Translations under genes and position numbers: made by a program
Shown: in pieces, positions 26,631-61,538 of the stretch
Layout: each line of letters opens with the position of its first letter
Position numbering within the stretch: the stretch's first letter is position 1
Notes under the pieces: model-generated
Databases searched by the model: none
Seen by the model: the letters and a program-made list of their open reading frames with translations, nothing else
What the model was told of the DNA's origin: nothing
From: Burkholderia sp. HI2500
GTDB taxonomy: Bacteria; Pseudomonadota; Gammaproteobacteria; Burkholderiales; Burkholderiaceae
Direction of reading: 5' to 3'
Assembly: GCF_002223055.1 (NCBI RefSeq)
Contig: NZ_NKFL01000004.1
Coordinates: 1,240,001-1,304,000 of the forward strand
DNA length: 64,000 nt

Positions 26631-26717
26631 TGGTGCCCAGGAGAGGACTCGAACCTCCACGATGTTGCCACCGCTAGGACCTGAACCTAGTGCGTCTACC
26701 AATTCCGCCACCTGGGC
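26631..26717 (-). tRNA. tRNA-Leu (anticodon CAG), copy 3
   Basis: Same 87-nt sequence as the genes at 526-612 and 845-931, with anticodon CAG and encoded CCA. The downstream terminator flank is also shared. Upstream the sequence diverges after about 5 bases, so this copy is not part of the recent 214-bp duplication. Confidence 0.95.
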
Positions 26718-47629: not shown

Positions 47630-47706
47630 GGTGGCTGTAGCTCAGTTGGTAGAGTCCAGGATTGTGATTCCTGTCGTCGTGGGTTCGAGTCCCATCAGCC
47701 ACCCCA
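47630..47706 (+). tRNA. tRNA-His (anticodon GTG)
   Basis: Starts at the extra G-1 (GGTGGCTGTAG), has anticodon loop ATTGTGATT, TTCGAGTC in the T loop and ends AGCCACCCCA with encoded CCA. 77 nt. A tyrosine integrase gene lies 87 bases downstream, so its 3' end is the likely attachment site of the prophage. Confidence 0.95.
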
Positions 47707-47793: not shown

Positions 47794-48819
47794 TTACATG
47801 CCTCTTCGCTTTACGATTTTCGTTCGATCGTAGACGCGCGCCGTCGTCGCCGGATTCGCATGCAAGTCCGGCAATGCGCCGCGTTCCGCCTTATGCCGCG
47901 TCACGTAATACGCGCGCAGGTCGTGGAACGTAAAGCGCCTCCCGATCTTCTTCAGCTCCAGGGCCTTGCTCATCAGCTTCGACCATTCGGTCTTGAAGCC
48001 GGCCGGCGTGTAGTGCGTCGCGTATCGATTCGAGAACACGTATAGGCAGTCGTCCTTGCGAGCAGCGCGCAGGCGCGCGATCAGTTCGGTCAGAGCGGGC
48101 GTGATCTCGATATGCTCGATCACCTCGCCGCGTTTCTTGCCGCGCTGCTTCGCGCGCTTGACGCGGATCTCGCCGGCGGCTTCGTCGATCTGCGGCCACG
48201 CGAGATCGAGAAACTCGACCTTCCGGTTGCCCGCCAGCGCCGCGTATTCGGCGGCCATGCCGATGACCGCCTTCTGTCCGCCGAGCGACGCGACCCAGGC
48301 GGCGAACGACTGGAAGTCTTCCGGTTCGGGTGCTTCGGTGCGCGGCTGCTCCTCGTTCCGACGAACCTCGCGACAGGGGTTATGCTTGGCCTCGCCGCGG
48401 TCGATCGCCAGACCGATCAGGTTCGAAAGCAGCGCAACCTCGCGGTTGGCGCGCACCGGCGCGGCTGCGCGCTCGATGCGCAGATAGCGCGAGACGTGTG
48501 TCGCGTCGATGTCGGCGGCGCGCATGTCGCCGAACGTTTCCAGCAGCGGCCCGCTGCATTGCTTGTAGTCGTTGCGCGTGTACTGCGAGTAGCGCTGCCA
48601 TCCGGGCGTCTCCTGGAACTGCTCCCATAGCCGCGCGATCGTGCCAACGTCGTCGCCGGCGCCGAGCAGGTCGAGCACCTTGCGTATTGCGACGAGCCGG
48701 TCCTGGCCGAGGTTGATCGGCTTCTTCCCGACCGGGTGATAGCGGTACGTGAAGCCTTCCTTCCGTTTCCGCGCCTCCATGCGCGGCAGGAGGCCATCAC
48801 GTTCCCGGTGCTTCTTCAT
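47794..48819 (-). CDS. int: Phage integrase (tyrosine recombinase)
   Basis: A 341-residue site-specific recombinase. It has an N-terminal arm-binding segment (GFTYRYHPVGKKPINLG), a core-binding SAM-like domain (about 65-145) and a catalytic domain with the first Arg in AALAGNRKVEFLDLAW, HxxR in TFHDLRAYYVT, and the nucleophile Tyr in ARVYDRTK. The ATG at 48819 overlaps the stop of the upstream Xis-like gene in ATGA. It lies at the phage edge next to tRNA-His and is the last gene of the leftward operon. Confidence 0.93.
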   Translation of the reverse strand: MKKHRERDGLLPRMEARKRKEGFTYRYHPVGKKPINLGQDRLVAIRKVLDLLGAGDDVGTIARLWEQFQETPGWQRYSQYTRNDYKQCSGPLLETFGDMRAADIDATHVSRYLRIERAAAPVRANREVALLSNLIGLAIDRGEAKHNPCREVRRNEEQPRTEAPEPEDFQSFAAWVASLGGQKAVIGMAAEYAALAGNRKVEFLDLAWPQIDEAAGEIRVKRAKQRGKKRGEVIEHIEITPALTELIARLRAARKDDCLYVFSNRYATHYTPAGFKTEWSKLMSKALELKKIGRRFTFHDLRAYYVTRHKAERGALPDLHANPATTARVYDRTKIVKRRGM

Positions 48820-49022
48820 GCTGCGACTCTCCATTTCGGCTGCGCGCGCGGCGCGGCTTCGGCGCGCGGGCGGTTGACCTGCTCCCACGTCAGCATGGGA
48901 TGCCCGTCAGCCTTTCGCGGCGCGTCGATGCCGAGTGCTTTCTTGATCCACCGGGCCTGCGCCGCACCCTGTTTCAGGCCGCCCGTCAGCTCGACGAGCT
49001 CGTCATTGGTCACGATTGGCAT
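48816..49022 (-). CDS. DUF4224-like / excisionase-type small DNA-binding protein
   Basis: A 68-residue protein (NDELVELTGGLKQGAAQARWIKKALGI...GHPMLTWEQVNR). The pattern, a short helix-turn-helix for picking substrate sites plus a C-terminal basic tail, matches the DUF4224 proteins that commonly sit just upstream of phage integrases. It probably controls integration direction or acts as a recombination directionality factor (inference from position). Confidence 0.78.
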   Translation of the reverse strand: MPIVTNDELVELTGGLKQGAAQARWIKKALGIDAPRKADGHPMLTWEQVNRPRAEAAPRAQPKWRVAA

Positions 49023-51189: not shown

Positions 51190-52461
51190 TCAGAAGGTTT
51201 TCGTAAGATCTCGATCGATGGCTTTCCCCAGCGAACGCAGGAGGTTCGCGAGGCTTGCGCGATCGTGGTGGCTGGCGGTTGCCTGCCGCAGCAGGCCGAA
51301 ATACGAATTCGCGACCGGCATCAGGTCGCCGGCTGGTGTCTCGGCGACGCGCCGCAGGGCTTCGTTGCGCGTGCGTTTCCGCGTCTCGCGACGCCATGGC
51401 TTGATGACCTGGCCGACGAAGTCGATGCCGCGGTCAATCGGCTGGAGGATGGTTTTGCGCGGGTTGATCCGCGCGCCGAGCTGCGTGGGCAGGAACGCGG
51501 TGACGTCGGCGAGGATCGCGTTCAAGCGCGCCGGCGACTCGTGCAGGAACACGAAATCGTCGACGTAGCGGATGTAGTGCCGCGCGCCGAGCACATGCTT
51601 CGCGCGCTGATCGAGAACGTCGAGGTACACGTTCGCGAAGAACTGGCTCGACAGGTTGCCGATCGGGAGGCCAAGGTGGTCGGCTTGTTCCATCAGGCGC
51701 TTGTGCGGCGGGACGAGCTCCATCATTGCCGGGTCCCCGTGGTATTCGAAGTCGGCCCGTGGATCGTGCATCAGCACGCGCTCGGTCAGCGCACGCCAAA
51801 ACGGCTCGGAGATCTTCTCGAAGAGCAGGCCGAGCAGGATGCGCTTGTCGATGCTGACAAAGAAGTTCGCGAGATCGCACTTCAGGTAGAACGCGCGACG
51901 CGACCAGTTCTGCGTGATCGATCGCACCTTCGCTTCGAGGCGCTGCGCGGCGTATAGCGTGCCGCGGCCCTTGATGCAGGCGCATGAATCGGCGATGAAG
52001 GACCGCTCGAAGCGCGGGCCGATCCGGTTGTAAAGCAGGTGGTGCACGATACGATCGCGAAACGCAGCCGCCCAGACTTCGCGCGGCTTCGGTCTCGTGA
52101 TGACGAAGCATTTCGAGCGGCCGGGCGTGTAGCTGCCGTCGGCCAGCTCGTCGTACAGACGTCGCAGGTTGCGTTCGAGCCGTATTTCGAACGCAAGCGC
52201 TGCATTGCTGTTTCGCTTCGTTCGCCGGCAGTCGAGATACGCTTCGACGAGCTCGGCGAACGAAAATGGCCCTCGATCTGCGGACGGCGCGGGCGCGCAA
52301 CTCGTTGTTCTGGTGGTTGTTGTTCTGGTTGCCATTGTTGAAGTTCTGGTACCACGCCCAGCCGGAGGTATCGTGCGATCTACGTCGCCCGACCGATTTC
52401 TCAGTCGGGAAACTGCGCTGGACCTTTCCGCACGCCGGCGGCCGGTTTCCTCATTGCGCAT
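51190..52461 (-). CDS. DGR reverse transcriptase
   Basis: Reverse transcriptase of a diversity-generating retroelement. It copies template-repeat RNA with errors at adenines so that cDNA can replace variable repeats. From ATG 52461 (423 residues) the RT domains are: RT2-like FVITRPKPREVW, RT3 FYLKCDLANFFVSID, RT4 GLPIGNLSSQFFANVYLD with the DGR-specific SQ replacing QG, RT5 RYVDDFVFL with catalytic YVDD (about 299-302), and RT6/7 GIDFVGQVIKPWRR. Homology begins just after the template repeat, and no ATG, GTG or TTG lies between the repeat and the RT domain in frame. The start is therefore uncertain: 52620/52623 (overlapping avd), 52461, or ATG 52335 inside the repeat. Operon with avd and two target genes. 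Confidence 0.93.
   Translation of the reverse strand: MRNEETGRRRAERSSAVSRLRNRSGDVDRTIPPAGRGTRTSTMATRTTTTRTTSCAPAPSADRGPFSFAELVEAYLDCRRTKRNSNAALAFEIRLERNLRRLYDELADGSYTPGRSKCFVITRPKPREVWAAAFRDRIVHHLLYNRIGPRFERSFIADSCACIKGRGTLYAAQRLEAKVRSITQNWSRRAFYLKCDLANFFVSIDKRILLGLLFEKISEPFWRALTERVLMHDPRADFEYHGDPAMMELVPPHKRLMEQADHLGLPIGNLSSQFFANVYLDVLDQRAKHVLGARHYIRYVDDFVFLHESPARLNAILADVTAFLPTQLGARINPRKTILQPIDRGIDFVGQVIKPWRRETRKRTRNEALRRVAETPAGDLMPVANSYFGLLRQATASHHDRASLANLLRSLGKAIDRDLTKTF
52277..52366 (-). repeat. DGR template repeat (TR), 90 bp
   Basis: Matches the three variable repeats at 52921-53010, 53407-53495 and 59538-59627. On the sense (minus) strand it is rich in AAC/AAT triplets and in the target reading phase would encode nine Asn. 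The first 28 plus-strand bases are identical in all four copies and include a 14-base run of only G and C on the sense strand, comparable to the (G/C)14 element of the Bordetella phage DGR. It lies between avd and the RT catalytic domain, inside the open RT frame. Confidence 0.95.
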
Positions 52462-52528
52462 GGCGGTGGCTTTGTGAGCCAGCGGCACGACCAGATTGAT
52501 ATATCGCTCAGCCGCGAAGGCCTTGACC

Positions 52529-52885
52529 TTAGCGGAGCGGGCGACGGTTTGCGGCGTTCTTCCAGCCGGTGGCCTGCTTCCCGATGCTCGTCGTCTTCTC
52601 GACGGCAGCTGCGTAGCCATCACGAGCGATCAGGCGTTTGTCCATGCTGAGACGAAGCAGCAGCTCGATCACCTGCAGGCGCTCGAGCAATTCGACGAGG
52701 TGGGGCGCCTTGTCGGCTGCGACGTTCGCGCGGAACACCAACACCATGATCTCGATGCATTCCGCGCTGATCTTCTCGCCGATGCTGCGCTTGAAGTCGC
52801 GGGGCATGTTCTTGACCAGGCTGGTAACGTCATCGAGTAGCCCGTAGGCCGCTCGATATATCGGGAGTTGGTTGTGCAGGGCCAC
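52529..52885 (-). CDS. avd: DGR accessory variability determinant (Avd)
   Basis: A 118-residue helical protein (LPIYRAAYGLLDDVTSLVKNMPRDFKRSIGEKI...MVLVFRANVAADKAPHLVELLERLQVIELLLRLSMDKRLI) with the pattern of the S23-type four-helix bundle of Avd. Avd forms a pentamer that binds the RT and the template RNA. The start appears to be GTG 52885, 14 bases after the stop of the first target gene. Order target-avd-TR-RT is the same as in Bordetella phage BPP-1. Confidence 0.93.
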   Translation of the reverse strand: MALHNQLPIYRAAYGLLDDVTSLVKNMPRDFKRSIGEKISAECIEIMVLVFRANVAADKAPHLVELLERLQVIELLLRLSMDKRLIARDGYAAAVEKTTSIGKQATGWKNAANRRPLR

Positions 52886-52899
52886 GGTGGGTTAAATGA

Positions 52900-53364
52900 T
52901 CAAAAAACTGAAGGGATAAATCTGCGGACGGCGCGGGCGCGCAACTCGTTGCCCTGGCGGGTGCCGTTCTGGCCGCCATTGCCGAAGTACGGGCACCACG
53001 CCCAGCCGGAATTCGATTCGTGACGTTCGCCGGACCAGTAATAGGCCTGCTCGAACTCGCCCTTCAGGTTGGCGAACAGGAGCGATTGCTCCCGCGGCGT
53101 CGGCAGTTCGCCGCCACGTTCGGCGGCCCATGCCTTCGCCGCCTCCCAATCCAGATCTTCGGCCTCCCCCGGCAGGAGAATCAGGTAGTGGCTCAACGAG
53201 CCGTCTTCGAGAAGAATCTGGCCGGCGATGCGCTCGCCGGCCGCGAGCGGGATCGTGACGGCGTCGACGTGGTACTCGGTCGCGCGCGGTTGCTTCTTGA
53301 ACTCGTCGATCATCGCGCCGATGCGCGCGTGATCTGCTTCGATCTGTTCGAGCGTGATCGTCAT
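52900..53364 (-). CDS. DGR target protein A (DUF1566/C-type-lectin-like)
   Basis: A 154-residue protein. An N-terminal alpha/beta stretch (IEADHARIGAMIDEFKKQP) precedes a Lcl/DUF1566-like domain: LPGEAEDLDWEAAKAWAAERGGELPTPREQSLLFANL, AYYWSGE and GWAWC. It ends in the variable repeat and ELRARAVRRF. Thirteen template adenines are substituted in its VR, giving new residues at surface positions of the lectin-type fold. It lacks a signal peptide and is too small for a tail fibre. Starts at ATG 53364, ends 14 bases before avd. Confidence 0.9.
   Translation of the reverse strand: MTITLEQIEADHARIGAMIDEFKKQPRATEYHVDAVTIPLAAGERIAGQILLEDGSLSHYLILLPGEAEDLDWEAAKAWAAERGGELPTPREQSLLFANLKGEFEQAYYWSGERHESNSGWAWCPYFGNGGQNGTRQGNELRARAVRRFIPSVF
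52921..53010 (-). repeat. DGR variable repeat VR1
   Basis: 90 bp aligned without gaps to the template repeat. All 13 differences are at template sense-strand adenines, and the last 28 sense bases are identical. The codons encode GWAWCPYFGNGGQNGTRQGN. Confidence 0.95.
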
Positions 53365-53394
53365 TGCATGCTCCGATTGTGAATGGCTGAAGGG

Positions 53395-53757
53395 TTAAAT
53401 CGACAATCTGCGGACGGCGCGGGCGCGCAACTCGCTGGTCTGGCGGTTGAGGCTCTGGTAGCCATCGTCGAAGTCCTGGGACCACGCCCAGCCGGGATAG
53501 TCGGGGTCGTCGTCCGGCGTGTTGGACCAGTACGCAGCCTTCTCGAACAGGTCGCGGTGCTGTTCGTAAGCGATCACGAGCTCGGTGCGCGTCGGCAAAT
53601 CACCGCCGATGCTCTTGGCCCAGTCCATCTGTTCCTGCCACGTTGCGCGATCGTTGTCGCCGGGCAGCAGGATCGTGTGCGTGACGTCGCCATTCTTGTC
53701 GACGAAGCCGCCGAGGTAAATCTCGCCCTCGGCGAGCGTGGGAAGCTGGATCTGCAT
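53395..53757 (-). CDS. DGR target protein B (DUF1566/C-type-lectin-like)
   Basis: A 120-residue protein: LAEGEIYLGGFVDKNGDVTHTILLPGDND, the helix QEQMDWAKSIGGDLPTRTEL, KAAYWSNTPDD and PGWAWSQDF, ending ELRARAVRRLSI. It is a minimal DUF1566/C-type lectin domain whose C-terminal variable positions come from VR2. It is shorter than target A but close to target C throughout, so the two are paralogues. It lies 30 bases upstream of target A. Confidence 0.9.
   Translation of the reverse strand: MQIQLPTLAEGEIYLGGFVDKNGDVTHTILLPGDNDRATWQEQMDWAKSIGGDLPTRTELVIAYEQHRDLFEKAAYWSNTPDDDPDYPGWAWSQDFDDGYQSLNRQTSELRARAVRRLSI
53407..53495 (-). repeat. DGR variable repeat VR2
   Basis: 89 bp aligned to the template repeat. 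All 11 internal differences are at template sense adenines; homology ends at 53495. The variable codons read SQDFDDGYQSLNRQTS. Confidence 0.95.
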
Positions 53758-53851
53758 GGTTTCTCCGGAAAAGAGAAGGGCGCCGATGAATGCGGCGCCC
53801 TTCGAATGCCGCGCGGACCGAGGTGAGCCGCGCGGGATAGGCTCTGTTGAA

Positions 53852-54475
53852 TCAGCGGGGCATCCACTGCGTGCCGCGCACGATCCGGCCGACCGGTTCG
53901 AGCACGAGCACCTCGGATTCCTTCTCGCTGCGCACGAGTGCGCTTCCGCGGCGCTGGGCTTTCTCCAGCGATTCGTGGCGTTGCGGCTTGCAGTTGCGGC
54001 CGACCGTGACGAACAGCGGCGCGCGTATGCCGACCGGGCCGAGCGTCAGCTCGTCGATGCGGGCCTCGAGCGCCGCGGCATTCGCGCGCCAGGTGTCGGC
54101 TTTCTGCTGCGCGGCGTCGCGCTCGGCCGCGAGGCGTTCGACATCGGCGCGCAGGTCTGCGATGACCCGCGCAACGTCGATGACGCCTGCGTTCGGGTCC
54201 AGCGACTTCTCGACCAGGCCGACCGATACCAGCGCCGGCGCGGCTGCGGCCGGCGGCGTGTCGCCAGGCGGCGGGGGCGCCTTCACTGCGCGCGCGAGCC
54301 AGTACACGTACTCGTTGCCGCCGCCGGCACGCTTCTCGCGCTCGACGATCGCCTCGCCGAGCATCCGGTTCAGCTCCTTCGTCACGTCGAGCTGCGGAAG
54401 TCCGGTTCCGGTCGCCACGGCCTTCGCCGTGGCTTCCGACGTCGCGGTGAGATACTTCTCGATGTCCTCTCTCAT
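53852..54475 (-). CDS. Phage protein with N-terminal winged helix (function unknown)
   Basis: A 207-residue protein. The first 65 residues (IEKYLTATSEATAKAVATGTGLPQLDVTKELNRMLGEAIVEREKR) look like a winged helix. A Pro/Ala-rich linker (about 68-85), a coiled coil (about 105-145, DLRADVERLAAERDAAQQKADTWRANAAALEARIDEL) and a basic C-terminal part follow. It overlaps the ATPase gene by four bases. Its function is not known. Confidence 0.72.
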   Translation of the reverse strand: MREDIEKYLTATSEATAKAVATGTGLPQLDVTKELNRMLGEAIVEREKRAGGGNEYVYWLARAVKAPPPPGDTPPAAAAPALVSVGLVEKSLDPNAGVIDVARVIADLRADVERLAAERDAAQQKADTWRANAAALEARIDELTLGPVGIRAPLFVTVGRNCKPQRHESLEKAQRRGSALVRSEKESEVLVLEPVGRIVRGTQWMPR

Positions 54476-56238
54476 GCTGCCTCCCGTATTGCATGCTGCG
54501 CGGCCGGCGCGACCTGACCATCCTCGACCCAGAAAGCCTCGATGGCTTCGGGCAGGCCGCCGGGCGGCGTCTTCAGGCTCATGAACACGAGCGCTGTGTC
54601 GACCTGGTAGGTGTATGCGAGGTCGTCGAGCCAGTACAGCAGCCGTTCACGCTCCGGCCCGACCAGCACATCTGCGCGATCAAGGACGAGCAGTTTCAGG
54701 CCCGAGAAGTGGCTGATCGCCGCGGCTATGTGCGCGTCGGCGCGCCAGCGTTCCGATTCCGACAGTAAGGCGTACGCACGACCGTTCGCGAGGATCTCCA
54801 TTTCCGGCGTGATCGTGACGTCGGCCCATTCAGACAGCTCGGCGAGCGCGGTCAGGCGCTCGTTCATCGGTGTCAGCGCTTCGCGCAGCAGGTCGGCCGG
54901 AATTCCGTTCGGCGCGAGCGCGTCGGCGATTGCTTCCCAGACGGCCACGTCCTGATACAGCGCGAAAGCCTTACCCGTAATCTCGATTGCGGCGACGGCG
55001 CGGCGCTCGGCGTCGCGCGCGGCCGCGATGTCCGTGTCGAGCTGCTTACGGCGTTGCATCAGCGCGCCGAGCTCGCGGCGCGCCGCGTCGATCGCATCGC
55101 CCGACGAGTCGCCGGCGCCGGCAGTCGCTTCGTTCTCCAGGTCCTTCAGTTGCTTCGCCGCCGCGTCAGCCGCTTCGAGTTCCGCGCGGCGATTGCGGGC
55201 GGCGTTCTGCAGCACCGTGAGGCTGCGCTCGTACTCGGGCAGTTTCGCGATCGCTTCATCATCGCGCGCGCCGGCTGCGGCGGCGGCCGTGAGCGCGCCA
55301 TGCAGGAAACGCAGCAGCGCGCCGCATTCTGGGCAGCTGCATTCCGTGCCGGCCGGTGCGGCGCCGGCGCGCACGCGCATCGCATCGACCTGCGGCTGAA
55401 ACTCCGCGAGCTGGTCTTCGGCCAGCTGCGCCAGCTCGGCGGCTTTCGCGCAGCCGGATGCCTTGTCGCGCAGCGCGGCGATTTTCGAGGCGCGGGCGCG
55501 CGCGGCGGCTTCGCCGGCCTCGGCCGCGCCGATCTGGCGCTGCAGCTCGCCGACGTCGCCGTCGAGCGACGCGCGCTCGCCTTCGAGCTTGCGCAGCGCC
55601 GCCGCGTCGAAGTTGACCGGTGCCGGTCGCCAATCCGCGGCCTTCTGGCTGCCGTACGTTTCACCGGTCGTCGCGCGCCATGCCTGCTTCGCGCCGCGTG
55701 CGCGATCCGCCGCTTCCTTCTGCGCGGCCTCGAAACCGGCGCGCAGCATCGGCGTGATCGCCTCGAGCTGGGCGTCGACGGCGAGCCTGATCACGCGGGC
55801 CGGAGACGTCAGCTTGTCGACCAGCCGCGCGCGAATTTCCTGGGCACCGATCTTCACGCCCATCAGCTCGTACAGGAACGCGCGGCGCGCAGCGGCGTCG
55901 AGCTGCGCGAAGCGCTGCGCATCGAGCACGAGAGGAAGGCGCGGATCCTCCGCGAGCTCGCGCTTCATTTTCCCGCCTGGCAGCATGACGCTGTTCGCAT
56001 GCTCGCCGCACGCGACGACGATCTGACCAGCCTCGGAACCCTCGGTCACGAGAGAACCGTATTCCTTCTTCAGCGCGACGCGCACGGTGTCTCCGGTGAG
56101 CGCCATACGCACGGCTTCCTGCAGGCTGCTCTTGCCGGCGCCGTTCGGGCCGGCGAAGAGTGCGACGGGTTTCGACAGCCGCAGGTCCGCGGCGTGGATC
56201 CCGAGCACTTTCGAGACATAGATGTCGGTGATCTTCAT
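54472..56238 (-). CDS. SbcC/Rad50-like AAA ATPase with zinc hook
   Basis: A 588-residue SMC-like ATPase. It has Walker A GPNGAGKSS (30-38), a coiled-coil arm, a zinc-hook CPEC motif (302-305) at mid-length, a second coiled arm, then a signature-like LSESERWRADAH (492-503) and Walker B LKLLVLDRADVL (514-525). This is the Rad50/SbcC layout in miniature. No SbcD-like nuclease is adjacent; the Cas4-like nuclease two genes upstream may be its partner. Probably acts in phage DNA end processing with RecT. Confidence 0.88.
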   Translation of the reverse strand: MKITDIYVSKVLGIHAADLRLSKPVALFAGPNGAGKSSLQEAVRMALTGDTVRVALKKEYGSLVTEGSEAGQIVVACGEHANSVMLPGGKMKRELAEDPRLPLVLDAQRFAQLDAAARRAFLYELMGVKIGAQEIRARLVDKLTSPARVIRLAVDAQLEAITPMLRAGFEAAQKEAADRARGAKQAWRATTGETYGSQKAADWRPAPVNFDAAALRKLEGERASLDGDVGELQRQIGAAEAGEAAARARASKIAALRDKASGCAKAAELAQLAEDQLAEFQPQVDAMRVRAGAAPAGTECSCPECGALLRFLHGALTAAAAAGARDDEAIAKLPEYERSLTVLQNAARNRRAELEAADAAAKQLKDLENEATAGAGDSSGDAIDAARRELGALMQRRKQLDTDIAAARDAERRAVAAIEITGKAFALYQDVAVWEAIADALAPNGIPADLLREALTPMNERLTALAELSEWADVTITPEMEILANGRAYALLSESERWRADAHIAAAISHFSGLKLLVLDRADVLVGPERERLLYWLDDLAYTYQVDTALVFMSLKTPPGGLPEAIEAFWVEDGQVAPAAQHAIREAA

Positions 56239-56250
56239 GGGAGGTTCCGG

Positions 56251-57435
56251 TTAGTCGGCGCTGATCGGCCCGCGTGCGCGCCGCGGCGCGCCGGCTCGCG
56301 GCTGTTGCTGCGCCTGTTCGGCGGCCGCGGTGATGGCGCGCATACGCGCGGACGCCGCGGCGTTCAGGTCTGCCTTCGCGGCCTCGTCCGGCACGCCGGC
56401 GATCGCGCTGCGCGCGAGGTCGAGATCCTCGGCAGTCGCCGCGGACTCGATGTCCTCGCGAATGCCGCGCACCAGGCCGTCGACGTCGAACTCAAACCCG
56501 CCTTGGCTCTGGCCTGCCTCGCCGCGTGGCTCGTCCTGGTCGTCGACCGGATCGGCCTGCGCCGCAGCCGGTGCGCCGTCCGTCTGCGGGTCTGACGCGG
56601 GCCCGGTCTGCGCAGGCGCCGTGCCGCGCAGCACCTCATCGGCAGGTTGCGCGCGTCCGCCGCGCAGCTCGTCAAGCGTCGCGCGGTTCACGGAGTAGCT
56701 GCCGTCGTCGTGCACGTCGACGATGTCGGCCGCTTCTTCGACGGTCGTAAGGCCCATCAGCAGCTCGGGCGCGTACAGCTTCCCGAAGAACGACGCCGTG
56801 CGGTAGCGCAACATGACCTCGTCCATCGTCTGCCACTTGCTGCCGTTCTTCGTATACCAGCCTTCCTTGACGGCCATCTCGATCGACACGGCAGGCGACT
56901 CGATGCGTTCGCCGGTTTCCTTCTCGATCGCCCATGCGACGCAGACCTTGTCCGTGATCGGAACGCTGATCGTGCGCTTCTGGCGCTGGTTGTTATCCCA
57001 GAACGTCTCGACGTAGTCGACGTTCTTCGCGCCGAGCACCTTGATGTCGAAGCGCAGCGGCGAAAAGCGGCCGCAACCGTTCACTGCAGCGATGATCCAT
57101 TGCGACGACCAGGAGGGCCGGCCTTCGACGATGTACAGGTTCTGCATCACCATCAGCGGGTCGGCGCCCATACGCTGCGCCATGTTCAGCGCGACGACAG
57201 CGTTCGCGAGTGCGTTTGGGTTCTCGCGCGACTCCTTCACGTTGCCGTACTTGTCGAGCTTCTCGATCACCTTGCGGTACGCGGCCGGCACGAGCGTCGA
57301 CGACGCGAGCAGGTTAGCCGCTCGCTGCATCAGCTCGAACGACTGCAGCGAGCCGAAGCCGGGCGCGACGGCGGGGAGGTTGGCCTCGCGCGGCAGCGGC
57401 GAGCGAACGGATTCCAGGGTGGTAGGCGTGGACAT
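56251..57435 (-). CDS. recT: RecT-family single-strand annealing protein
   Basis: A 394-residue phage recombination protein from ATG 57435. The RecT core (about 25-250) shows ALANAVVALNMAQRMGADPLMVMQNLYIVEGRPSWSSQWIIAAVN, VPITDKVCVAWA, and WQTMDEVMLRYRTASFFGKLYAPELLMGL. A low-complexity acidic linker and an Arg-rich tail follow. It anneals single strands during phage recombination and works with the nuclease encoded immediately upstream. Confidence 0.9.
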   Translation of the reverse strand: MSTPTTLESVRSPLPREANLPAVAPGFGSLQSFELMQRAANLLASSTLVPAAYRKVIEKLDKYGNVKESRENPNALANAVVALNMAQRMGADPLMVMQNLYIVEGRPSWSSQWIIAAVNGCGRFSPLRFDIKVLGAKNVDYVETFWDNNQRQKRTISVPITDKVCVAWAIEKETGERIESPAVSIEMAVKEGWYTKNGSKWQTMDEVMLRYRTASFFGKLYAPELLMGLTTVEEAADIVDVHDDGSYSVNRATLDELRGGRAQPADEVLRGTAPAQTGPASDPQTDGAPAAAQADPVDDQDEPRGEAGQSQGGFEFDVDGLVRGIREDIESAATAEDLDLARSAIAGVPDEAAKADLNAAASARMRAITAAAEQAQQQPRAGAPRRARGPISAD

Positions 57436-57449
57436 GGAGATCTCGCGGG

Positions 57450-58259
57450 TTAATCGTGGAACTGGCAGGTGCCGTGGCGCGGGCAGTACTTCTTGTCGCA
57501 CAGCAGCGATTTCGGGTTGGGGTAGAAGCGGCCGGACCGGAACATGTCCGCGGCGAACTGGATCAGCCCCGGCGTTTCCTCGGTGCCGACCATCACGCGC
57601 TTCGAGTTCGCGATCGGCGCGGTCGCGACCTCGGGCGTGCCCTTCGTTTTCAGGCCGATGATCTCGGCCGTATCGCCGATTTCCTCGCCGGTCGTGTGCT
57701 CGTACAGCAGCTCGTATGTGCCGATCTGCGGGCCGTGCCCCTTCGTGACCGCCGCGCCTTTCTGGACTGCGGACGATCCGCTCTTCAGGTCGGCGATGCC
57801 GACGCCGGCCGCCGAGCGGCGCACGCGTGCGCGGTCCATCGTGCCTGTCAGGCGCACGATGACGCCGCCGCCGCAATCGATTTCGAGCGGCTTTGTTTCC
57901 ATCTCGACCGCGACGAAGTTGTAGCGCGGTGCGACCTCGAGGCAGTACTTCGTCGTGAGCGACAGGCCGATGCGCTCGGCGTCCGACATGCTCAGGTCGT
58001 CGCGGGCCGGATCGAACTCGTTCTCCGGATCACGCAGCTTGTCGACGAACGCGCCGGCAGCGTCGTCGACGGTCAAGCCCGAGCCATCGAGGCGCGCCTG
58101 GTCGAATACGGCGGTGCCCGCGTGGATAGCGGTACCGAGCGCGGCGCGCAGGCCGACGACGTTGCGCATGTTCAGGAGGTGGATGCCTTCCCAGCGATAC
58201 GCGCAGTCGAAGAGTGCGCCCCAGCTGGACGCGCGGACGGTATAGACGGACGGATTCAT
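57450..58259 (-). CDS. PD-(D/E)XK nuclease, Cas4/RecB-like with four-Cys cluster
   Basis: A 269-residue nuclease. The core has TMDRARV, GIADLKSG and QIGTYELLYEHTTG, the motif series of the Cas4/RecB family. Cys in FDCAYRW at the N terminus and the cluster CDKKYCPRHGTC at the C terminus form the four-Cys iron-sulfur signature of Cas4/AddB-type enzymes. It supplies resected ends to RecT. It overlaps the next gene by four bases. Confidence 0.87.
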   Translation of the reverse strand: MNPSVYTVRASSWGALFDCAYRWEGIHLLNMRNVVGLRAALGTAIHAGTAVFDQARLDGSGLTVDDAAGAFVDKLRDPENEFDPARDDLSMSDAERIGLSLTTKYCLEVAPRYNFVAVEMETKPLEIDCGGGVIVRLTGTMDRARVRRSAAGVGIADLKSGSSAVQKGAAVTKGHGPQIGTYELLYEHTTGEEIGDTAEIIGLKTKGTPEVATAPIANSKRVMVGTEETPGLIQFAADMFRSGRFYPNPKSLLCDKKYCPRHGTCQFHD

Positions 58260-58423
58260 GCGGTTCTCACAGGGATGGATACGACGGACGTGCCGTCCTG
58301 GTTGAGCGCCGCAATCGCGAGCATGCACACGAAAGCGACGACGATCATCAGCGCGATCGCGCGGACGGGATGGCGCTCGTACAGGCGATCGAGCGCCGAG
58401 CAGAGAAAGTCGATAGGGGTCAT
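58256..58423 (-). CDS. Small membrane protein
   Basis: A 55-residue protein with one membrane segment (AIALMIVVAFVCMLAIAAL) after a short helix. ATG 58423 overlaps the neighbour by four bases, as does its stop. Role unknown; tiny membrane proteins in early operons often affect host division or superinfection. Confidence 0.65.
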   Translation of the reverse strand: MTPIDFLCSALDRLYERHPVRAIALMIVVAFVCMLAIAALNQDGTSVVSIPVRTA

Positions 58424-58602
58424 CCGAGGCTCCTCAGGTAGGGGCCGGCGACCAGCGAGCCGTACCAGAGGCACGCGATCGCGAAGCCGTAGGCGACCAT
58501 CCACGCGCCGGCCTCGATGGCGCGGCGTATGCGCGGCGCGCGCGCGGCAACGCGCAGAAGCGCGTTGTCGGTCGCCGCACGGGGAATGGTGAGCGCACGC
58601 AT
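58420..58602 (-). CDS. Small membrane protein
   Basis: A 60-residue protein with a basic N-terminal half and one membrane segment (GAWMVAYGFAIACLWYGSLVAG). Start ATG 58602 directly abuts the stop of the upstream gene and its own stop overlaps the next start. Function unknown. Confidence 0.65.
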   Translation of the reverse strand: MRALTIPRAATDNALLRVAARAPRIRRAIEAGAWMVAYGFAIACLWYGSLVAGPYLRSLG

Positions 58603-58932
58603 TTACAGACCCTCGCCGCAGACGCGCACGTGGCGCACGGGATCAGCGACCGGCACAGGTGCCGAGTAACCGGCCTTACCGAGCGCAGCGTCGACGACGG
58701 CGCGGATTCCGGACGTGAGTACCGTTTTTGAGGCGACGAGTCGCAGCGCCGTGACGATGTCAGGCGCCGCTGCGATCAGCTGCGCGCGCGCCTCGGATTG
58801 TTCGCCCGTGCCGAGTACGATGCAGATGCGTTCGTCTTCGCCGAGCACGACGATGCAGTTGCCGTCGTAGTCGAGGTAGTCGCCGGGCTCGCACGTTTCC
58901 CACGGCCCTTGCGGATGGTTGGTCTGTCCCAT
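58603..58932 (-). CDS. Hypothetical phage protein
   Basis: A 109-residue protein from ATG 58932 (GPWETCEPGDYLDYDGNCIVVLGEDERICIVLG, then ARAQLIAAAPDIVTALRL). The ending is common to small phage proteins of beta-then-helix type that carry the AQLIAAAPD pattern. No function known. Confidence 0.75.
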   Translation of the reverse strand: MGQTNHPQGPWETCEPGDYLDYDGNCIVVLGEDERICIVLGTGEQSEARAQLIAAAPDIVTALRLVASKTVLTSGIRAVVDAALGKAGYSAPVPVADPVRHVRVCGEGL

Positions 58933-58957
58933 GTGGTCTCTCGGTGTGGTGTGCGGC

Positions 58958-59065
58958 TCAGCCGCGGTGGTGGTCGTCGCGGCCCTTGTCCTTGATCGCG
59001 ATGGCGATTTCGACGACGAACCAGAAAGCGAGCAGCGCGAGCGCGCCGATAACGAAGCGGGCCAT
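58958..59065 (-). CDS. Very small membrane protein (35 residues)
   Basis: A 35-codon gene with a gagga ribosome site before ATG 59065. The product has one membrane segment (ARFVIGALALLAFWFVVEIAIAI) and a charged tail (KDKGRDDHHRG). It fits exactly between two neighbours in the operon. Too short for standard ORF cut-offs, but its position and hydrophobicity support it. Confidence 0.6.
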   Translation of the reverse strand: MARFVIGALALLAFWFVVEIAIAIKDKGRDDHHRG

Positions 59066-59066
59066 G

Positions 59067-59492
59067 TCAGATTCCTCGCAAGAGGCGCAGGGCGGACGCG
59101 CCGTGGTCTGCGCAGTGGCTGACACCAGTGTTGCCGGGGCCGAGTTCCGCGCCGCATGCCGAGCAGGTCGTCTGCGCGAAGCGCGGTGCGGCGGCGGCGA
59201 GGTCTGCGGCGGCGATACGACGCGCGATCTCGGCGGCGCGCGCGGCGACTAGTGTTCCCCAGACCGTGTACACGTCCTCGATGCGGCCGCGTGCCAACGC
59301 AGCGTCGATCACTGCGCAGTCGGTCGTCGAGATTTCGAGCCTGTCGAACGTGACGCCGTCGGCGATTTCTTCGTTGCGCTCATCGCGCGTCAGCGCCGCG
59401 TCATCGGCCGCTGATTGTCGGCGGTCGGCGATGGCGTCCATACGCGACGGGAGCGTGCGGACGTTTCCGACCTGGTGATTATTCGGATGCAT
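59067..59492 (-). CDS. Hypothetical phage protein with C-terminal zinc-binding motif
   Basis: A 141-residue protein from ATG 59492 (ribosome site ggaggg). It has a helical middle (TVWGTLVAARAAEIARRIAAADLAAAAPRF) and a C-terminal CSACGAELG...HCADHG cluster that may bind zinc. It lies between target C and the small membrane gene. Confidence 0.72.
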   Translation of the reverse strand: MHPNNHQVGNVRTLPSRMDAIADRRQSAADDAALTRDERNEEIADGVTFDRLEISTTDCAVIDAALARGRIEDVYTVWGTLVAARAAEIARRIAAADLAAAAPRFAQTTCSACGAELGPGNTGVSHCADHGASALRLLRGI

Positions 59493-59525
59493 CGCACCCT
59501 CCACGCAGTTGAAATCGATGAAGGG

Positions 59526-59906
59526 TTAAATGGGCAATCTGCGGACGGCGCGGGCGCGCAACTCGCTGTGCTGGGGGTGGCTGAGCTGGGTGCCACCGTA
59601 GAAGCCCTGGCACCACGCCCAGCCGGAGTAGCCCGGGTCCGTGTCGGGTTGGTTCGACCAGTAGGCGTCCGGCTCGAACTCGTCGCGATGGTTTTCCAGC
59701 AGAAAGAGCATTTCGACGCGCGTCGGCAGGTCGCCGCCGATCGATTTCGCCCACTCCATCTGCACCTGCCAGCTGGCGTCGTCGTTGTCGCCCGGCAGGA
59801 GCACGACGTGATGCTGTTCGCCGGCCGTGTTGGTGACGATGCCGACGTAGATCTCGCCCTCGGCGAGCTGCGGAACGGAAACAGCGGTGGGGGTGGGCGC
59901 GTTCAT
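59526..59906 (-). CDS. DGR target protein C (DUF1566/C-type-lectin-like), first gene of the pL operon
   Basis: A 126-residue paralogue of target B: LAEGEIYVGIVTNTAGEQHHVVLLPGDND, WAKSIGGDLPTRVEM, DAYWSNQPDTDPGYSGWAWCQGF, ending ELRARAVRRLPI. VR3 carries 14 adenine substitutions. It lies more than 6 kb from the RT, separated from the other targets by the recombination genes, yet stays in the same operon and is the first gene read from pL. Confidence 0.9.
   Translation of the reverse strand: MNAPTPTAVSVPQLAEGEIYVGIVTNTAGEQHHVVLLPGDNDDASWQVQMEWAKSIGGDLPTRVEMLFLLENHRDEFEPDAYWSNQPDTDPGYSGWAWCQGFYGGTQLSHPQHSELRARAVRRLPI
59538..59627 (-). repeat. DGR variable repeat VR3
   Basis: 90 bp aligned without gaps to the template repeat at 52277-52366. 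All 14 differences are at template sense adenines. The codons read CQGFYGGTQLSHPQHS in the variable zone. Confidence 0.95.
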
Positions 59907-60296: not shown

Positions 60297-60335
60297 ATAT
60301 TAGAAGTTCTCTTTTTCATGGTCAAGAGAAATTCT
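60297..60335 (-). promoter_or_regulatory. Prophage early promoter pL with two operators
   Basis: Read leftward: TTGACC (-35, 60320-60325), 17 bases, TAATAT (-10, 60297-60302). AGAAGTTCT (60302-60310) overlaps the -10 and AGAAATTCT (60327-60335) lies just beyond the -35, their centres 25 bases apart. The same layout recurs at pR, so both are almost certainly bound by the same repressor. Confidence 0.85.
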
Positions 60336-60511: not shown

Positions 60512-60880
60512 ATGGACAGAAACGGGAACGCGAGTGGGCCGCGATGCAAACCGGGGGATCTGGCTAGGATCAAGCGCGCGTGGAATGCGCTTCTAGTGGG
60601 GGAGTTGGTGTTCGTGCGCAGCTATCAGCCAGGGGGCATGTGGCTTGTTAGCCTTCTGGGAGAACCAGCGCTCGGAGTCGGCGCGGACCGTAAGCGCCTC
60701 GTCATAACGCGCACGCTGATTGCTGATGATTCGGCACTTGAACCATTGGACAGCAGGGGCGAAATTAACGGCCTAGAGGCCGTTACAGGTTCAGCAGAGC
60801 GGGCGGCTCATCGGAATTCGGAAGCATGCGAAGCATCAACGCGAATGTCTGGGCCGGCTCACCAGATCTGTCCGCCTTGA
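60512..60880 (+). CDS. LexA-controlled small phage protein converging on the repressor gene
   Basis: A 122-residue protein from ATG 60512. The core (PGDLARIKRAWNALLVGELVFVRSYQPGGMWLVSLLGEPALG) is a beta-rich, SH3-like small domain often seen in Burkholderia phages as hypothetical proteins. Its last 98 bases overlap the end of the repressor gene on the opposite strand. Regulated by the LexA box just upstream, it would be made on DNA damage, and its transcript would be antisense to the repressor. Antirepression is inferred. Confidence 0.72.
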   Translation: MDRNGNASGPRCKPGDLARIKRAWNALLVGELVFVRSYQPGGMWLVSLLGEPALGVGADRKRLVITRTLIADDSALEPLDSRGEINGLEAVTGSAERAAHRNSEACEASTRMSGPAHQICPP

Positions 60881-61214
60881 GAATCGCATCGATCAAGGCT
60901 TGCGCAGCCGGACTGACAGAATTCACCAGCGCGCCTCGTTCGGCAGCGGGCAGATCGCGCGCGAGCCGCGGGCTGATGACGACGGGATCAGCGCCGATCT
61001 GAGCACAAATCGCCAGAAGCGCCTTCACGTTGAGTGGGATGATCCCGCGGAAATATTGGCTGATCAGGCCTTGGGTTCCCAGACCTGTGGCCTCCGATAG
61101 CCAAGCTTGTGACGCGCCGGGATGGCTGGATTTGTAGCGTTTCCACGCCGCAACCAGTCGATCACGATCCTCAAGTTCATCCTCGGTGAGAGGGCGTTTT
61201 TCTACTGTAGCCAT
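60783..61214 (-). CDS. Prophage repressor (CI-like), helix-turn-helix only
   Basis: A 143-residue protein from ATG 61214. The N-terminal HTH (about 25-75) reads SQAWLSEATGLGTQGLISQYFRGIIPLNVKALLAICAQIGADP. The rest is helical. It lacks the S24 peptidase domain of lambda CI, so it would not be cleaved by RecA in the usual way. The nearby LexA-controlled convergent gene may replace that link. It is divergent from the Cro-like gene and shares operators with it. Confidence 0.83.
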   Translation of the reverse strand: MATVEKRPLTEDELEDRDRLVAAWKRYKSSHPGASQAWLSEATGLGTQGLISQYFRGIIPLNVKALLAICAQIGADPVVISPRLARDLPAAERGALVNSVSPAAQALIDAILKADRSGEPAQTFALMLRMLPNSDEPPALLNL

Positions 61215-61261
61215 GTGCAAATGGTAAATAGCGCCACTAATATTTGCTTGCCGAGGTCATT

Positions 61262-61300
61262 AGAAGTTCTCTTGACTTGATATAAGAGAACTTCTAATAT
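61262..61300 (+). promoter_or_regulatory. Prophage early promoter pR with two operators
   Basis: AGAAGTTCT (61262-61270), TTGACT (61272-61277), 17 bases, TAATAT (61295-61300), with AGAACTTCT (61287-61295) against the -10. Operator centres are 25 bases apart, exactly as at pL. Transcription would begin close to the ATG at 61308, so the first mRNA may be leaderless. Confidence 0.85.
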
Positions 61301-61307
61301 TGAGCGC

Positions 61308-61538
61308 ATGAACAACATGCGATCTCTCCGCAAGACTCTGGGCATGTCTCAGGCCGAACTGGCCGGCAGCATTGGGGTCACGCAGTCCGCCCTTTCTCAC
61401 TACGAGAACGGCAGCTGTGATCCGCTCGTCGGGACAGCTCGCAGGCTCATTGCCTTTGCTGGCACGCGTGGATTTGCGTGGCATCTCGACGATGTGTACT
61501 CGTCGCCGACGGACCCTCAACAGAAGGAGGGGAAGTGA
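61308..61538 (+). CDS. Cro-like helix-turn-helix regulator
   Basis: A 76-residue HTH_3 protein: MRSLRKTLGMSQAELAGSIGVTQSALSHYENGSCDPLVGTARRLIAFA. It is divergent from the repressor and is the first gene read from pR, the Cro position. The start is ATG 61308, or ATG 61317 if leaderless initiation is not used. The stop overlaps a following GTG by four bases. Confidence 0.85.
   Translation: MNNMRSLRKTLGMSQAELAGSIGVTQSALSHYENGSCDPLVGTARRLIAFAGTRGFAWHLDDVYSSPTDPQQKEGK

Follow-up and report, generated by a model that had tools for sequence, protein, structure and literature searches.

The stretch analysed here, called the window below, is 64,000 nucleotides of Burkholderia sp. HI2500 DNA (contig NZ_NKFL01000004.1, positions 1,240,001 to 1,304,000). 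It carries a diversity-generating retroelement (DGR) with a reverse transcriptase (RT), an accessory protein gene (avd), one template repeat (TR) and three variable repeats (VR1 to VR3) in target genes T1 to T3. We consider it settled that the element is a DGR. It is complete, its three targets have diversified independently of one another, and its footprint is specific to adenines. Its parts, in window coordinates and all on the minus strand, are as follows.

51190..52335, minus: reverse transcriptase, assigned from profiles and translation
52276..52365, minus: TR, 90 nt, from gap-free comparison
52364..52546, minus: RT-15 structured RNA (RF03018), directly 5' of the TR and overlapping the last 18 nt of avd
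52529..52885, minus: avd (accessory variability determinant), assigned from profiles
52889..52921, minus: AT-rich octamer tail of VR1
52900..53364, minus: target T1, 154 aa, C-type lectin fold model
52920..53009, minus: VR1, 13 changes at A sites
53380..53405, minus: AT-rich octamer tail of VR2
53395..53757, minus: target T2, 120 aa, C-type lectin fold model
53406..53495, minus: VR2, 11 changes at A sites
59508..59536, minus: AT-rich octamer tail of VR3, third unit degenerate
59526..59906, minus: target T3, 126 aa, the nearest convincing gene behind the leftward promoter
59537..59626, minus: VR3, 14 changes at A sites

A complete DGR with three diversified targets

The RT matched the RVT_1 profile and PHROG 1423 (5.6e-111), with GNLSSQ and YVDD seen in its translation, and compared with the RT of a BPP-1-type phage at 31.9% (tblastn). 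Avd matched Pfam bAvd (48.9 bits, cut-off 40) and PHROG 3206. In a gap-free comparison over 90 nt, VR1, VR2 and VR3 had 13, 11 and 14 mismatches to the TR, and all 38 fell on TR adenines, which is far beyond chance because only 26 of the 90 TR bases are A. By hand count, the stretch from TR offset 15 to offset 60 has 23 adenines, and 20 of them were altered in at least one VR. The TR and VRs are the same as far as CAGAT and diverge beyond it; the border mismatch of VR2 (52366) falls immediately beyond the 90 nt compared. Every VR stands at the 3' end of its open reading frame (ORF), which in each case encodes a C-type lectin-fold target. An earlier note, made from the letters alone, had described the RT with its GxxxSQ and YVDD motifs, Avd, one TR with three VRs at the 3' ends of target genes, the numbers and positions of the mismatches, the single exception at the VR2 border and the proportion of adenines changed, and our results agree with it on all of these.

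The target-frame reading of the TR is GWAWYQNFNNGNQNNNHQNNELRARAVRR. It is rich in asparagine, whose codons here are AAC or AAT, so changes at the A positions cannot create stops. Searching the strain's own genome with the TR gave 11 matches at E ≤ 1, of which the TR and the three VRs scored 6e-22 or better. The other seven were short, with E of 0.05 or worse, and we rejected the idea of extra remote VRs on the grounds that only four copies had a meaningful score.

The TR also overlaps the RT gene. The first possible ATG of the RT (52335) is within the TR, and an alternative in-frame ATG (52461) is within the RT-15 RNA. We tested ATG, GTG and TTG up to codon 20 of the conserved RT; the window has none between the TR-internal ATG and that codon, so with these start codons its RT must begin inside the TR or upstream. 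An in-frame stop inside the TR excludes an upstream start in 27 of 157 related elements, and in some of these (e.g., L036, L049 and L051) starts are visible only inside the TR. Overlap of a TR with the end of an RT ORF has been catalogued before, for DiGReF group 3 (PMC3521204, in the portions available).

We surveyed the lineage through an RT search, taking 80 of 125 genome loci and 80 of 479 viral loci. Adding six phage records and the window brought the set to 167 loci. At least one A-only VR was present in 157 of them, and the VRs found lay upstream of the TR. The detector favours A-only matches, and contig ends cut some loci. Among 144 non-redundant elements, 82 had two VRs, 50 had three, four had four, one had five and seven had one. 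T1 was mostly about 650-700 nt from the TR and T2 mostly about 1,150 or 1,400 nt, while further VRs varied in distance and were often remote. From these counts and distances, the rule of the lineage is two tandem targets plus an optional third. Mismatch rates in the 144 elements were 46% at A versus 1.5-2.2% at C, G and T, and adenines changed unevenly, to G 2140 times, to T 1358 times and to C 784 times. By eye, the adenines at TR offsets 39, 54 and 63 were never changed in VR rows whose TR equals that of the window. One genome (G008, contig C1) carries two elements, L199 and L200, about 48 kb apart and with different VRs.

The earlier note suggested that the element has been active, and proposed comparing VRs and TRs in relatives. 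This comparison supports activity in relatives. Phage records OK094664 and OP650936, both 47,902 bp, have 31 base differences after one is rotated: 14 in VR2, 13 in VR3 and 4 in the rest of the genome. Their TR and VR1 are identical, and their TR is that of the window. TR adenine sites account for 26 of the 27 VR differences. At the remaining site one record has the TR base and the other does not, which is what overwriting of a VR would produce. The replacement reaches the remote target T3. These records carry the host labels Shewanella baltica (OP650936) and Tenericutes (OK094664), which look doubtful given their 63.2% GC content and Burkholderia-type DGR with the window's exact TR. We found no literature on Shewanella phage QDWS.

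Bases shared between TRs and their own VRs point the same way. In 82 elements whose repeats align to the window TR (the detector asks only for likeness to that TR), VRs had the same base as their own TR in 687 of 694 cells where the TR carried an unusual base other than A, the majority base in 6 and another base in 1. Where the TR had gained an adenine, the VRs had A in 153 cells; 25 cells showed the majority base and 50 a third base. L200 illustrates this, with a new TR adenine matched by A, G and A in its three VRs. Taken together, the sequences indicate that VR replacement has happened in nature, in relatives of this element. Eight viral contigs share the exact TR core, and no further near-identical phage pair was found among the five compared base by base (L095, L096, L097, L099 and L100), since their VRs all differ; L103, L104 and L107 lay outside that comparison. 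For the window strain a single genome copy was compared, and no activity was seen in it.

The RT-15 RNA and the octamer tails

RT-15 scored 167 bits in the window (cut-off 82) and is a full-length member of its family. It ends at the TR border here and stands directly before the TR in the aligned elements. An Rfam scan of 17 further loci, from among the shorter ones, found it in 16; L174 had no match. Searching with RT-15 alone in 398 genomes of the family, the strain's own included, gave 26 above the cut-off. We followed 20 of the 28 places listed, starting from the RNA, and an RT lay directly downstream in 19. The remaining one (L228) has RT-15 and only an RT fragment, and is probably a broken element. 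The common fold of 33 of the 144 RT-15 sequences (32 chosen for less than 80% likeness, and that of the window, itself close to L009) has 49 pairs, 30 of them with compensatory changes on both sides.

For these 33 elements, consensus folding of the 3' flank (140 nt counted from the TR end) found no conserved pairs. We also considered a conserved RNA within the 5' part of the RT gene and rejected it by consensus folding and by four-fold-site identity, which gave no synonymous excess (0.46, 0.41 and 0.51 over codons 1-45, versus 0.38-0.60 elsewhere). RF03022, the BPP-1-type RNA, had no match in the window. Six outgroup loci were scanned, of which two had an Rfam RNA and four had no match. In both, the RNA was 3' of the TR: RF03022 at 5822-5954 with the TR at 5682-5802 in a BPP-1-type phage, and RT-14 at 5798-5941 with the TR at 5681-5765 in BalMu-1. 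The 3' spacer of BPP-1 recruits the complex and primes cDNA (PMC12875486, in the portions available). Given that role and the lack of 3' structure here, RT-15 may take over loading and priming from the 5' side. An unpaired conserved AAUCUG of RT-15 could pair with CAGAU at the TR end, and five pairs are kept in 132 of 144 elements. We found no literature linking the RT-15 RNA to a reverse transcriptase; the source paper of RT-15 was outside this search.

Behind the VRs of the lineage lie AT-rich octamers, roughly [AC]TTYANNN three times over, beginning mostly at base 8 or 9 past a conserved GCA. Self-identity at lag 8 was 0.41 in VR tails, 0.26 in shuffles and 0.20 behind the TR. At least two consecutive units followed the VR in 119 of 120 T1 tails, 112 of 118 T2 tails and 52 of 53 T3 tails, compared with 5 of 123 TR tails, 290 of 20,000 random 60-mers from the same loci and 167 of 5,820 shuffled tails. 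The window's VR1 and VR3 tails were dropped from these counts as duplicates and inspected separately. Eight previously unseen elements from the RNA search had at least two units in 17 of 19 VR tails, and the seven TR tails shown had none or one. A strict form of the pattern occurs four times in the window, with 0.16 expected, and three of these are at VR1 and VR2; the third unit behind VR3 is too degenerate to match it. Their presence behind each VR and not behind the TR suggests that the octamers could set the direction of transfer from TR to VR.

No hairpin with a stem of at least 5 bp and a loop of 3-6 nt was found within 80 nt behind VR1, VR2 or VR3. Four of the five outgroup DGRs that have a TR and VR do have a hairpin behind the VR, with loops GAAA, GATA, GATA and GGTA; in the sixth outgroup locus (L225) we found no TR/VR. 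The BPP-1 target needs a hairpin behind the VR, a feature conserved among phage DGRs with GRNA loops (PMC3240598), lying 3' of the initiation of mutagenic homing (IMH) sequence (PMC12875486) and required in a subset of DGRs (PMC3521204), according to the accessible parts of those papers. On DGR hairpins, the places viewed in three other sources held nothing relevant (PMC10907252), no hairpin, tandem or spacer (PMC8867640) and protein hairpins only (PMC10743442).

Prophage setting and target proteins

The element lies in a prophage of about 44.4 kb, the first 16.3 kb or so of which are inside the window. It is bounded by two copies of a 49-bp sequence from the 3' end of tRNA-His, one at 47658-47706 in the window and the other at G000:C4:1332050-1332098.

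47631..47706, plus: tRNA-His, whose 3' 49 bp are the attachment-site repeat (47658-47706)
47794..48888, minus: tyrosine integrase, from profile matches
53775..53803, minus: terminator-like stem-loop between a regulator-like gene and T2
54472..58328, minus: recombination genes between T2 and T3 (SbcC-like ATPase, RecT-like annealing protein, PD-(D/E)XK exonuclease)
60297..60325, minus: leftward sigma-70-like promoter TTGACC-17-TAATAT, PL-like, in an inverted repeat
60783..61220, minus: repressor candidate, from position and orientation only, with no PHROG match
61272-61300, plus: mirror rightward promoter, PR-like, sharing a common inverted repeat with the leftward one
61308..61538, plus: Cro-like regulator

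This arrangement does not bear out the earlier note's description of the targets as belonging to one operon. A terminator-like stem precedes T2, and T3 is 6.1 kb from T2 with the recombination genes between them. Beyond the window, the 10 prophage ORFs scanned include terminase, portal, tail sheath, baseplate, tail fibre and endolysin genes, which make the prophage a myovirus type. The tail fibre genes carry no VR.

T3 lies directly behind the PL-type promoter. Repressor and regulator genes are found upstream of T3 in many loci, according to a PHROG scan of 98 of the 132 listed ORFs from 33 loci (counted per ORF, with 25 of 61 families shown). In Magia, QDWS and this prophage the targets stand between repressor and integrase, on the strand opposite the tail genes; in Magia and QDWS that strand is also the repressor's. 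The targets scored 20.0-28.8 bits with the Lcl_C profile (PF07603), below its cut-off of 34.9, and the fold agrees. Close homologues carry the name DUF1566, and at least T2 and T3 are paralogous at the DNA level. The solved structures nearest to the target models are 8q4e (Lcl) and 8oks (Bd2740), which we take to be domains of surface proteins. A hydrophobic N-terminus is absent in 323 of 335 targets, and T1 to T3 had no PADLOC match.

Three further observations concern the surroundings. The minus-strand gene at 49025-50116 matches PHROG 2045 (phage protein) and also the PADLOC candidate-defence models PDC-M41B and PDC-M30B. A transposase-type ORF (PHROG 513) lies in the prophage past the window (L220:2127-2780, G000 C4). 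Three tRNA-Leu (CAG) genes of equal Rfam score are at 529-612, 848-931 and 26634-26717 (minus strand), two adjacent and one 26 kb off.

Known systems, competing explanations and meaning

DGRs of this kind were already known, since Burkholderia phage Magia (MT701587) was announced with one, and the window holds another copy. The Magia RT is 93% identical and the order of target, Avd, TR and RT is the same. Its authors reported a "potential DGR" with targets 47 and 57 and a possible change of host range (PMC7883833). Their paper names two targets and gives no RNA, tail or activity evidence. The test used here adds gene 46 (T1), which has a VR of its own, as a third target. The authors describing phage KS5 thought its RT unlike Brt (PMC3091744). 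The depositors of phage Cruim01 list RT-15 beside its RT, while the Rfam name of RT-15, unlike that of RF03022, makes no mention of DGRs. Hosts of DGRs with several VRs (B. thailandensis MSMB43, B. glumae BGR1, Ralstonia pickettii and Collimonas) are already catalogued (PMC3521204), and elsewhere 271 of 948 DGRs had multiple VRs, with DUF1566 the commonest target domain (PMC6642488). The available portions of these two papers, including DiGReF group 3 in the former, make no tie to RT-15, octamer tails or early-region targets, and those of PMC8144416 mention neither Burkholderia, Pseudomonas, DUF1566 and multiple targets nor unknown function and receptor binding. Lcl_C/DUF1566 proteins share the fold of the window targets with a weak profile match, and the window targets are small and stand alone.

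The analogy with Bordetella phage BPP-1 drawn in the earlier note stands in part. The order of target with VR, avd, TR and RT, the A-only mismatches and the C-type lectin target are alike. The BPP-1-type phage, however, has RF03022 3' of its TR and a hairpin with an 8-bp stem behind its VR (PMC3240598 and PMC12875486, as far as their accessible text goes), whereas in the window the structured RNA is 5' of the TR and octamers, with no hairpin, follow the VRs. The BPP-1 target is a tail protein, and the window targets lie in the early region. As far as the literature reached, several points, all drawn from sequence, appear to be new: RT-15 is linked to this DGR lineage and stands on the 5' side of the template, octamer tails follow the VRs, the targets lie in the early region, some members have the RT start codon within the TR, and a natural phage pair shows replaced VRs.

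We think it quite likely that this DGR, carried by a temperate phage of myovirus type, is one of a kind that has been active in nature, and that in it RT-15 would act from the 5' side, the octamers would mark the recipient and the targets would be cytoplasmic early proteins. A transcript starting with the RT-15 RNA and running through the TR would be copied by RT and Avd. Adenines would be misread during copying, and the cDNA would overwrite VR1, VR2 or VR3. The RT-15 RNA may do the loading and priming done by the 3' spacer in BPP-1, and the octamer tandem repeat behind a VR may mark it as recipient in place of the BPP-1 hairpin. The targets are probably small lectin-fold binding proteins of the early or lysogeny arm. 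As cytoplasmic proteins they would be more likely to meet intracellular molecules of the host or of rival phages than cell-surface receptors.

Several points weigh against this account. GC-rich stems of at least 6 bp occur within 60 nt of lineage VRs in 39 of 120 T1, 15 of 118 T2 and 6 of 53 T3 cases (TR 10 of 123, shuffled 2 of 291), so hairpins are not absent from the family as a whole and are found chiefly near T1. The octamer score was picked after the pattern had been seen, and the fresh set is small (8 elements and 19 tails, some identical). The likeness of the T1 to T3 tails could have come about through duplication. The AAUCUG/CAGAU pairing is nearly invariant, with too little variation to support or refute it, and T2 had no PDB match at E 0.001 or better (Foldseek). 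The pair OK094664/OP650936 is the single direct sign of recent activity, in phages other than this one, and a C-to-A change in the Magia TR is found in none of its VRs. These last two points would suit a dead relic whose VRs diverged long ago. We nevertheless rejected that reading as extremely improbable on the TR-specific bases found in own VRs of the 82 elements and the natural pair with its identical TR; the ORFs are also open.

What the targets do can be explained in other ways. The element could be a conventional BPP-1-like DGR that changes host range, as the Magia authors suggest, through targets that bind receptors or are attached to the virion, and the C-type lectin fold is that of known DGR targets, with Lcl and Bd2740 as nearest solved relatives. 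We think this unlikely, since the targets sit between repressor and integrase opposite the tail genes, T3 follows a PL-type promoter, the tail fibre genes have no VR and a hydrophobic leader is rare among the targets. The DGRs of BalMu-1 and phiARM81mr, in contrast, have virion genes around them; that of the BPP-1-type phage is near a lysozyme gene, and the VP58.5 record names no functions. Proteins made in the lysogen for superinfection exclusion, or for conflict with the host or with other phages, would fit the strand shared with the repressor in Magia and QDWS, the regulators upstream of T3 in many loci and the failure to find a virion link. We judge this just as unlikely as virion-attached targets, because T3 in the window, following a promoter within operator-like repeats, should be off in the lysogen, and because PADLOC matched none of the three targets.

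The two RNA and DNA signals can also be read differently. The octamers might be translation, decay or termination features of mRNA ends, kept by target duplication, with no part as a homing signal. They lie across the stop codon or after it, at least two of the targets (T2 and T3) are paralogous, and terminator-like stems follow some Pseudomonas tails. Yet their period is 8 and not 3, they keep largely the same phase with respect to the conserved GCA, and the fresh elements had them behind nearly all VRs with at most one unit behind the TRs shown, which leaves the mRNA-end explanation somewhat unlikely. That RT-15 is a regulatory leader for RT translation, and no part of the DGR template RNA, seems distinctly improbable. 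It does precede the RT gene and contains an in-frame ATG in the window, but it abuts the TR throughout the aligned elements, it is the only conserved fold found near the TR, and 27 of 157 elements have an in-frame stop inside the TR, between RT-15 and the RT start.

More broadly, RT-15 DGRs may form a mechanistically distinct class, in which the 5' RNA loads and primes and a tail of 8-bp periodicity marks recipients. With it, temperate phages in Burkholderiaceae, in Pseudomonas and in their relatives would vary lectin-fold proteins that are made early and work inside the cell. We offer this tentatively, as a proposal whose chances fall somewhat short of even. If it is true, these phages would have a rapidly changing arsenal of early proteins against host or rival-phage factors. 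The mechanistic DGR knowledge cited here comes from BPP-1, and a widespread sister lineage with its RNA on the opposite side of the template and a different recipient signal would show which features are essential and which are peculiar to BPP-1; it would also give a second chassis for targeted protein diversification. Phage DGR targets have been described as mainly receptor-binding proteins (PMC10743442, in the parts available), and hypervariable early proteins would widen the view of what phage DGRs are for.

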